A DNA stretch of 64,000 nt from Malaciobacter marinus (GTDB lineage: Bacteria > Campylobacterota > Campylobacteria > Campylobacterales > Arcobacteraceae). This document shows, in pieces, positions 14,525-17,177 of the stretch. Position 1 is the first letter of the stretch. Each line of letters begins with the position of its first letter. The stretch is from contig NZ_CP032101.1 in assembly GCF_003544855.1 (NCBI RefSeq), positions 1,674,001 to 1,738,000 of the forward strand, given 5' to 3'. The position numbers and the translations under genes were made by a program. The notes below the pieces were generated by a model that saw nothing but the letters and a program-made list of their open reading frames with translations, did not search any database and had not been told where the DNA came from.

Positions 14525-14971
14525 CTACTCTCCTATAATGTCAACTTTTAAAGTTGCATGAACAGCATGGCCTAATTTACAATCAACTTCATAAATACCA
14601 GGTGCTTTTATTTTTTTATCTAAAGATATATTTTTCTTATCAATCTTAATTTCGAACTCATCATTTAAAGCTTCACTTATCTCTTTATTTGTAACTGAAC
14701 CTATTAGATGTCCATTTGCACCAGCTTTATGTTTGATTGTTAATTTTGTAGAATTTAAAGTTTCTGCTAGTTTTGTAGCCTCATCAATTTCTATAGCTAT
14801 TTGTTCTTGCTCTCTTTTCTTTTGTGCTTCATATTTTCTTATTACATCATTTGTTGCATGTAAAGCAAGACCTTTCCCAATTAAGAAGTTTTTTCCATAT
14901 CCATCTTTTACTTCTTTAACTTCACCTGCTTTACCTAAGCTTTTTACATCTTTTGTTAATAAAACTTTCAT
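14525..14971 (-). CDS. rplI: 50S ribosomal protein L9
   Basis: 148 aa. [36 protein letters not shown] is the L9 N-terminal rRNA-binding domain, joined by a long helix (about 45-80) to the C-terminal domain with [13 protein letters not shown]. It is the first gene of the rplI-hslV-hslU unit, with GGAG upstream of its start and a promoter candidate just behind. Confidence 0.96.
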
Positions 14972-15154: not shown

Positions 15155-15189
15155 ATACTCTTGATATTAACTTGCAATATCAAGAGTAT
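15155..15189 (-). repeat. Perfect 14-bp inverted repeat spanning the recombinase-like gene's stop
   Basis: Arms 15155-15168 and 15176-15189 are exact inverted copies of 14 bp around a 7-base centre. The arms cover the last codons and the stop of the serine-recombinase-like gene. On the minus strand the stem is followed by AATTTTTAT, so it may work as a first terminator. It could equally be a DNA-binding or former crossover site, since serine recombinases bind inverted arms of this size. Confidence 0.75.
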
Positions 15190-15808
15190 TTCTCAAATTT
15201 TCTCTAATACTTCTTTTTTTGACATAATTATTTAATCCAATATGATTGCTATAACCTAAAAGTTTTGCAATCTTTCTTACTGATAAACCAACAGATAATA
15301 ACTCTTCTATTTTTTCTCTTTGATTATCAAATTTTGATTTTTGAATTGTACCTTTTGGTTTTCCAAGATGAGCACCTTCTAATTTTTTTGCAGTAAGTGC
15401 TTCTTTAGTTCTTATACTCATAAGCTCTTTTTCAAGTTTTAAAGTCATAGAGATTACACCTAAAATCATTTGAGTTAACATATCATTATCATCTATTAAA
15501 TCTAGATTTTGTTTTATTACAATAATTCTGATTTTATTACTTAATAAAAATTTAACTATCTCTAAAATTGTTTCAACTGTTCTTCCAAAAACATTTAAAT
15601 CTGCAACTAATAAAGTTGATTTACTTTGGGAATTTTTTAGAAAATCTAGCATGTTTTTTTCATCACTAGGAGTATTTATTTCTATTTCAATACTTTGATA
15701 AATCTTGATATTTTGTTTTTTTATATACTCATTTAGAACATCATTTTGTTGTTTGGTATACACCTCATTGTTTTTATTTATTCGAACAAAACTAAAAATT
15801 TTAGACAC
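15167..15808 (-). CDS. Serine-recombinase (resolvase/invertase) homologue lacking catalytic residues
   Basis: 213 aa with the full small-serine-recombinase layout: N-terminal resolvase domain (1-125), long E helix (about 105-135), the LGKPKGT linker (about 150) and a C-terminal helix-turn-helix (LSVGLSVRKIAKLLGYS). Compared with gamma-delta resolvase, the nucleophile Ser10 is Asn (VRIN where VRVS is expected), Arg45 is Glu, Asp67 is Asn and Arg68 is Val; only Arg8 and Arg71 remain. It should bind DNA but not cut it. I chose the GTG at 15808 because AGGA lies six bases upstream and the domain starts there; the upstream extension is hydrophobic and unlike the family. No mobile-element genes adjoin it. 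Confidence 0.82.
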   Translation of the reverse strand: MSKIFSFVRINKNNEVYTKQQNDVLNEYIKKQNIKIYQSIEIEINTPSDEKNMLDFLKNSQSKSTLLVADLNVFGRTVETILEIVKFLLSNKIRIIVIKQNLDLIDDNDMLTQMILGVISMTLKLEKELMSIRTKEALTAKKLEGAHLGKPKGTIQKSKFDNQREKIEELLSVGLSVRKIAKLLGYSNHIGLNNYVKKRSIRENLRNTLDIAS

Positions 15809-16008
15809 TTTAAATCCTTTTACAATAAGTATTATTATAAATAAATTATTTAACATATTGTTATATTTATAATATTTTTTGTTATACGAAATGTTAGTAT
15901 AGTTTTAATAAGACAAAGCTTAACTAAGGCTTCAAAAATAGCTTTTTTCTATACTTGTGTTACTGTTTTTATACAATTATGTGTTATACATTTTGAAAAA
16001 TTCAAATT

Positions 16009-16063
16009 GGCAAATCTTTACACCTCCTTTGAGTTTTTTATTATTTGTTTTTTTTTGATTTGC
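16009..16063 (-). other. Hairpin-framed strong Shine-Dalgarno with a three-codon ORF in the recombinase leader
   Basis: On the minus strand AAAGGAGGTG (16030-16021) is an unusually full match to the 16S rRNA 3' end, followed after seven bases by TTG CCA ATT TGA. The site lies in the loop of a possible 7-bp stem (GCAAATC at 16010-16016 with GATTTGC at 16057-16063). No longer ORF follows. It lies about 200 bases before the recombinase-like gene and could belong to its leader. Confidence 0.3.
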
Positions 16064-16122: not shown

Positions 16123-16677
16123 TTGAAATTAACTGTTGCCATTACTGGTGCTAGTGGAGCAAGTTTAGCTCTTAAATTTGTTGATAATATTCCTGAAAAT
16201 GTAGAAGTATTTTTAGTAGCTTCAAAAAGTGCAAAAATTGCTTTAAAGCTTGAAGAAAATATTTCGATTTCTAATTATTTCAAAAGCAAAAAAAACTTAA
16301 CAATTTTAAATGATAGTGATATTTCAGCTTCAATAGCTTCTGGTTCATTTGGTATAGATAAGATGATAATCTTACCCTGTTCTATGAATACACTTGCAAA
16401 ATGTTCTATTGGAATTTCAGATAGCTTAATAACAAGAGCTTTTACAGTAATGCTTAAACAAAAAAAAGACATAATTATTGCACCAAGAGAGATGCCTTAT
16501 AATACAATTATCTTAGAAAATATGCTTAAATTATCTCAATTAGGAGTGATTATCGCTCCTCCAAGTTTAGGTTACTATTCAAGCCAACAAACTTTAGAAG
16601 ATATGGAATACTTTTTAATTGGTAAATGGTTTGATTTATTAGGAATTGATAATAATTTATACAAAAGATGGGAATAA
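16123..16677 (+). CDS. ubiX: UbiX-type flavin prenyltransferase
   Basis: Makes the prenylated FMN cofactor used by UbiD decarboxylases. 184 aa with the flavodoxin-like start MKLTVAITGASGASLALKF, the CSMNTLAKCSIGISDSLITRA block and the C-terminal prenyl/phosphate site PREMPYN. Start is TTG with AAGGA six to seven bases upstream; no ATG fits. It opens a long plus-strand run and is joined to coaD by only a few bases. No ubiD is in the window. Confidence 0.92.
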   Translation: MKLTVAITGASGASLALKFVDNIPENVEVFLVASKSAKIALKLEENISISNYFKSKKNLTILNDSDISASIASGSFGIDKMIILPCSMNTLAKCSIGISDSLITRAFTVMLKQKKDIIIAPREMPYNTIILENMLKLSQLGVIIAPPSLGYYSSQQTLEDMEYFLIGKWFDLLGIDNNLYKRWE

Positions 16678-16679
16678 AT

Positions 16680-17177
16680 ATGCAAAATAAAGAAAAAACA
16701 AATAATGGTGGAACATATAAAAAAGCTATTTATAGTGGAACTTTTGATCCTATAACAAATGGTCATATGGATATTGTAAGAAGAGCTACAAGTATTTTTG
16801 AAGAAGTAATTGTAGCAGTAGCAAAAAGTGAAAGAAAAAATCCAATGTTCTCCCATGAGCAAAGAGTCAATTTTGCAAAAGAAGCAACAAAAGATCTTGA
16901 AAAAGTTACAGTTGTAGGCTTTGATATTTTACTTGTAGAACTTGCAACACAAATGAAAATAAATACTATTATTAGGGGATTAAGAGCTGTTAGTGACTTT
17001 GAATATGAATTACAAATGGGTTATGCAAACTCTTCTATAAACAAAGACTTAGAGACTCTTTATCTTATGCCAACTTTAAAAAATGCATTTGTTAGCTCTA
17101 CAATTGTTAGAGAATTGATTATGTTTAATGGAAGCTTTTGTCATCTTGTACCAAAAGAGGTATTAAAATGTATGTAG
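16680..17177 (+). CDS. coaD: Phosphopantetheine adenylyltransferase CoaD
   Basis: Joins ATP and 4'-phosphopantetheine to dephospho-CoA, a late step of CoA synthesis. YSGTFDPITNGHMDIVRRA carries the nucleotidyltransferase (T/H)xGH motif; RGLRAVSDFEYE and the SSTIVREL block follow. I took the ATG at 16680, six bases after GGA, rather than the ATG at 16668 inside the ubiX end. The C-terminus overlaps tmk by ten bases. Confidence 0.94.
   Translation: MQNKEKTNNGGTYKKAIYSGTFDPITNGHMDIVRRATSIFEEVIVAVAKSERKNPMFSHEQRVNFAKEATKDLEKVTVVGFDILLVELATQMKINTIIRGLRAVSDFEYELQMGYANSSINKDLETLYLMPTLKNAFVSSTIVRELIMFNGSFCHLVPKEVLKCM

Follow-up and report, generated by a model that had tools for sequence, protein, structure and literature searches.

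A probably domesticated serine-recombinase homologue of the Arcobacteraceae with a conserved putative operator in its own promoter

The window analysed here, a stretch of 64,000 nucleotides from Malaciobacter marinus, contains on its reverse strand an intact gene for a serine-recombinase homologue in which catalytic residues are replaced. The locus raises the question why a recombinase that very likely cannot recombine is retained among housekeeping genes. The first-pass annotation had suggested a domesticated recombinase serving as a regulator or as a DNA-architecture protein. Our analysis supports domestication; the binding of DNA by the protein is still inferred.

The gene, its neighbours and its conservation

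The gene encodes a protein of 213 amino acids in a frame that is open throughout. It starts with a GTG codon at 15808, which is preceded by the ribosome site AAAGGA, and stops at 15167. The following features are referred to below.

15167 to 15808, reverse strand: coding sequence of the serine-recombinase homologue (very likely dead), 213 amino acids, GTG start; orthologues in 57/60 genomes of the same family
15434 to 15808, reverse strand: resolvase (catalytic-like) domain, residues 1-125, PF00239; 23-32% identity to the nearest active relatives
15380 to 15481, reverse strand: helix E (dimerisation helix), residues 110-143, as predicted in the AlphaFold2 model
15194 to 15379, reverse strand: linker GKPKGTIQKSKFD and helix-turn-helix, residues 144-205, near-invariant across the family
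16123 to 16677, forward strand: ubiX, the conserved divergent partner
16668 to 17177, forward strand: coaD, following ubiX
14525 to 14971, reverse strand: rplI, downstream in the same orientation; not generally linked
15155 to 15189, no strand assigned: perfect 14-bp inverted repeat across the stop codon, probable terminator, in this genome and one close relative

The protein matches the Pfam family Resolvase (PF00239) with 56.2 bits (cut-off 23.3) over residues 17-146 and also matches HTH_38; it is the sole PF00239 match in the 2.9 Mb genome. The AlphaFold2 model (mean pLDDT 86.6) predicts the resolvase elements, a 34-residue helix E and the helix-turn-helix, and its best matches in the PDB are Tn3 resolvase on site III and gamma-delta resolvase. 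Resolvase domain, helix E and C-terminal helix-turn-helix, which define the fold superfamily of the serine recombinases, are all present, and the earlier claim that these parts are present in an intact frame held. The best NCBIfam match is to the PRK13413 / Mpi-family DNA invertases (NF009949). It covers almost the full length of the protein; in contrast to these invertases, however, the window protein remains below the cut-off (87 versus 272 bits) and has lost catalytic residues. In PHROGs the protein matched a DNA invertase family and, weakly, an integrase.

The gene shares its strand with hslU-hslV-rplI, and ubiX-coaD-tmk-hisS are divergent. The neighbours are housekeeping genes, and no mobile element was found among them within the window, as had been claimed. 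A Tn3 transposase is absent from the genome, so that a linked transposase, one criterion for assignment to the TnpR lineage, is lacking.

Orthologues are present in 57 of the 60 Arcobacteraceae genomes; the named relatives of the protein belong mostly to this family, the nearest being from Malaciobacter halophilus (94%). This family-wide conservation is shown. Pairwise dN/dS values of 0.01-0.17 indicate purifying selection, the non-synonymous divergence (pN) is comparable to that of ubiX, coaD and rplI, and the DNA-binding half is the better conserved half of the protein. The same substitutions and the same synteny recur across the whole family. With family-wide orthologues, retained synteny and these dN/dS values a decaying pseudogene could be rejected; a strain-specific one would have refuted the first-pass annotation. 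The proposed location between rplI and ubiX held only in part. While ubiX-coaD is divergent from the gene at 47/49 testable loci, rplI is situated downstream at just 27/41, and a fixed linkage to rplI was rejected; the constant partner is ubiX. We conclude that selection probably maintains a DNA-binding protein, the binding itself being an inference.

Active site and descent from active recombinases

Positions of the active site are numbered as in gamma-delta resolvase, the equivalents of Arg8, Ser10, Arg68 and Arg71 in the window protein being R9, Asn11, Val73 and R76. Three codons were assigned by alignment.

15776 to 15778, reverse strand: Asn11 codon, aligned with the catalytic Ser10
15590 to 15592, reverse strand: Val73 codon, aligned with the catalytic Arg68
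15656 to 15658, reverse strand: Lys51 codon, equivalent to Arg45 in the alignment with the nearest active relatives; variable in the family

The nucleophile Ser10 is lost in 51 of the 53 orthologues that cover the position (Asn 48, Ile 3, Ser 2), and Arg68 is lost in all 54 (Val 52, Ala 1, Ser 1). Loss of these catalytic residues is shown. The first-pass annotation had named both replacements, Ser10 by Asn and Arg68 by Val, and both held; an alignment restoring the serine and the arginines, which would have refuted it, did not emerge. Its replacement of Arg45 by Glu is true only against gamma-delta resolvase. Against the closest active relatives, which carry the motif ERRID or QRRID, the position corresponds to Lys51 and varies among the orthologues (K 31, E 7, R 4, others; n=53), the adjacent Glu50 being invariant. 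The exchange of Asp67 for Asn is correct but not diagnostic, as most active relatives already have Ser there. Arg8 and Arg71 are retained in every family orthologue covering those positions.

In serine recombinases the loss of the nucleophile and of Arg68 is sufficient to abolish catalysis. Because both are missing, and with them the Ser10 and Arg68 expected of an active small serine recombinase, the window protein is very likely catalytically dead; this is inferred from sequence without an activity assay.

As a separate observation, one genus (L056-L059), in which genome reduction has gone furthest within the family (four genomes, 1.3-1.5 Mb), has strongly diverged copies of about 40% identity. 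These have Ser at position 10, lack Arg68 and carry Lys in place of Arg8.

When named genomes were scanned, Legionella, Chloroflexota-type and Omnitrophota records yielded active relatives with 39-46% identity. In the nearest of them, the aligned sisters L288-L293, the catalytic residues are intact, unlike in the window protein. In the tree the dead family and six active relatives form a single clade (support 100/98), and descent of the dead family from active recombinases is thereby shown. The C-terminal DNA-binding part (residues 126-205) is 60-74% identical to active relatives, measured on the sisters L288-L293 from genome contigs, compared with 23-32% for the catalytic domain.

Eight plasmid records were also considered, which carry relatives 52-90% identical to the sister L290. 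Four of these relatives, L300, L301, L302 and L305 on plasmids of Legionella fallonii, Ca. Megaera, Persicobacter and Moellerella, are divergent from an annotated Tn3-family transposase. Of the other four, one is adjacent to toxin-antitoxin genes, another is adjacent to an Rpn nuclease/putative transposase gene, and the last two come from records without annotation. None of the plasmid genes is in the tree; the four Tn3-linked ones are 62-81% identical to its member L290. Shared ancestry with Tn3-associated resolvases, a second criterion for the TnpR lineage, is met by the 100/98 clade and, via L290, by the plasmid link.

The palindrome AACGNNCGTT is found in 11/14 sister upstream regions, including those of L300, L301 and L305, and in none of the upstream regions of the dead family (0/54 loci). 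We infer that it is the crossover core of the sister recombinases. If so, the dead loci lack the crossover site near the gene that would be expected of an active recombinase. Besides this core and the intact active site, the sisters differ from the window gene in belonging to mobile elements.

Residual recombination, weak or by means of another residue, for example where Ser is present, was considered as an alternative. The retention of Arg8 and Arg71 and the Ser at position 10 in two orthologues speak for it. Against it stand the complete absence of Arg at position 68 (n=54), the drift of the Arg45 position and the missing core palindrome, and we regard this possibility as practically ruled out.

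The putative operator in the promoter region

Upstream of the gene the following elements were identified.

15882 to 15896, reverse strand: putative operator O1, TAACATTTCGTATAA, near-invariant in the family; its right half may double as a -10 element
15849 to 15865, reverse strand: operator-like O2, about 33 bp downstream of O1; repeats the O1 motif in weaker form, as in most orthologues
15820 to 15834, reverse strand: operator-like O3, adjoining the ribosome site; a weak copy of conserved position
15919 to 15923, reverse strand: TTAAG, first half of TTTAAG-N5-TTTAA (HP1043/CosR-type box); a family-wide footprint

The operator motif TAACATTTYGTATAA is near-invariant and lies about 90 bp upstream (about -90) of the dead gene in most species and at about -54 in one genus. 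O1, O2 and O3 form an array with a spacing of about 33 bp. A conserved operator in the own promoter, as demanded of a transcriptional autoregulator, is thus shown; data on binding or repression are not available. O2 and O3 lie below 15880 and hence outside the region 15880-16063 that had been named earlier as a binding probe. The other region named as a candidate for binding, 15155-15189, does not qualify as an operator of the whole family: among the loci inspected, its perfect inverted repeat occurs only in this genome and its nearest relative. It is probably just a species-level terminator.

Independent support was obtained from the active sisters. For 14 sister recombinases, the upstream 200 bp were scored with a matrix built from the dead loci only and compared with shuffles. 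The summed best score exceeded the shuffles with z 4.2; the same matrix gave z 0.7 on 29 other active recombinases and z 1.0 on 30 promoters of a second dead clade (see below). The motif upstream of active sisters is thereby shown for the set; taken singly, 3/14 regions beat every shuffle. Upstream of the Tn3-associated L305 there are two inverted copies, TTAACATTATGTATA, so that this gene has the operator motif in common with the dead family.

Just upstream of O1 an element TTTAAG-N5-TTTAA occurs across the family, at 15907-15923 in the window, where its second half is degenerate. It matches the consensus of HP1043 (PMC8345958).

Two other readings of this region were considered. First, O1 could be a mere promoter, an HP1043/CosR-type box with an extended -10, used by other factors, with the dead recombinase binding elsewhere. 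The fit of the upstream element to the HP1043 consensus and the -10-like TGTATAA are in favour of this. However, the TAACA part of O1 is near-invariant although it is outside any -10, copies of the motif recur in the 5' leader, and the motif is found upstream of sister active recombinases but not of the controls. We consider a promoter-only function unlikely.

Second, the protein could be a DNA-architecture protein without promoter control, its dimers organising the local region from tandem sites and perhaps bridging them by surfaces derived from the synaptic complex. Helix E in the model, the array and its spacing, and the architectural nature of the accessory-site complexes of resolvases (PMC9943657) are compatible with such a role. 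Against it, the genome as a whole shows no enrichment of the O1 pattern (71+75 matches versus 110+106 for the reversed control), the strict pattern in ten genomes has a conserved location solely at the promoter of the gene itself, and the distance of O1 to the start codon is fixed in most species. This reading also appears improbable. The search in the ten genomes revealed no regulon.

A probable domesticated resolvase and a second dead clade

The explanation that we consider likely is that of a domesticated TnpR-type resolvase which has lost recombination and kept the role of a repressor. It is known that Tn3 TnpR represses tnpA and tnpR by binding to res (PMC7157771). In this view, an ancestor of the Arcobacteraceae would have acquired a resolvase along with a portion of the binding-site region upstream of it. 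Neither the transposase nor the palindromic core that presumably served as crossover site would have survived, and ubiX-coaD would have become the divergent neighbour. The catalytic serine and Arg68 would have disappeared afterwards, the dimerisation helix and the DNA-binding domain being kept under strong selection. A dimer would bind the array of TGTATAA/TTAACA half-sites in its own promoter. Since O1 overlaps the presumed -10, autorepression would be the simplest action, dimers on O1 shutting off the promoter of their own gene; an additional effect on ubiX-coaD may exist. Binding of the operator by the window protein, repression and any influence on ubiX are inferred, without experiment.

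The TnpR proteins of Tn3-family transposons (gamma-delta, Tn3) resemble the window protein in the fold, helix E and the helix-turn-helix, and in a gene that is divergent from its neighbour with binding sites (putative in the window) in the shared upstream region. Repression of the own promoter would be a further likeness, in our case by inference. Unlike these systems, the window gene has no catalytic Ser, no Arg68, no transposase and no core palindrome, and it is chromosomal and conserved in a family.

Several points stand against the domestication model. The TGTATAA part of O1 could possibly be conserved as a -10 element, and the operator motif is convincing individually in no more than those 3 of 14 sister regions. 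Position 10 is Ser in two orthologues, Arg8 and Arg71 remain throughout, and the copies of the genus with reduced genomes are strongly diverged. Moreover, autoregulation alone leaves the family-wide retention without explanation, because no second conserved target was found.

A defence function in trans was considered as a further alternative: as a dominant-negative resolvase, the protein would occupy the res sites of incoming Tn3-type transposons and silence tnpA. The DNA-binding half is indeed still similar to that of active enzymes, and the operator motif is present upstream of at least one Tn3-associated resolvase (L305). Yet Tn3 transposases are rare in the order (6/249 genomes, two of the six in Arcobacteraceae), so that no protective pattern is visible, and the conserved helix-turn-helix is explained equally well by the conserved autogenous sites. 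We judge this function very unlikely.

A separate clade of dead serine recombinases (L071, L125-L142, L155-L194) was observed in ten other families of the order, with one copy per genome. At the loci that yielded a ccoG match, the recombinase gene precedes ccoG in the same orientation and is almost always its immediate neighbour; FixG_C was confirmed in one case. Among the 57 copies Arg68 and Arg71 are lost in all and Ser10 in 55; a segment of helix E has been deleted, and 56/57 keep two cysteines. Most promoters of this clade contain a covarying inverted repeat, TGRCGAAAA-N20-TTTTCGYCA, of about 39 bp around a -35. In two genomes of one family (L219, L234, L224) the 39-bp palindrome also occurs elsewhere. 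One additional site, common to both genomes, lies in an intergenic region flanked by a Dabb-type gene and by a gene for a membrane protein; another, in one genome, is upstream of a small uncharacterised gene. These sites suggest a small regulon of the ccoG-linked clade, and the two conserved cysteines might sense the redox or metal state.

The two dead clades are alike in being dead serine-recombinase homologues, one per genome, with a palindrome in the own promoter. They differ in helix E, in the cysteines, in the operator and in origin. A single origin was at first not rejected (AU p 0.17) and was rejected once the sister recombinases had been added (p 0.021). With long branches present, we take this as moderate evidence for separate origins. 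A bolder reading, to which we lean by a narrow margin, is that serine recombinases were converted at least twice within one order into conserved dead promoter-binding regulators, in the Arcobacteraceae from a Tn3-linked lineage and elsewhere as a regulator of the ccoG operon.

Beyond the claims of the first-pass annotation, the likely Tn3-linked origin, the conserved autogenous operator and the independent support for it from active sisters are new. In the open-access literature searched, which leaves most subscription journals outside its scope, we found no description of dead serine recombinases or of regulators of ccoG, nor of a dead family-wide resolvase with an autogenous operator. The conversion of a mobile-element protein into a regulator is a known kind of event; what appears to be new is its form here, a dead resolvase that is family-wide and has an autogenous operator.

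For the annotation of these genomes it follows that a 'recombinase family protein' is not necessarily a mobile element. Because sisters with intact active sites still carry related (putative) binding sites, the sequence allows the transition from recombinase to regulator to be followed step by step, and these steps are testable. Repression, a side role of resolvases such as Tn3 TnpR, seems here to have become the sole role of the protein and to have persisted throughout a family of bacteria.
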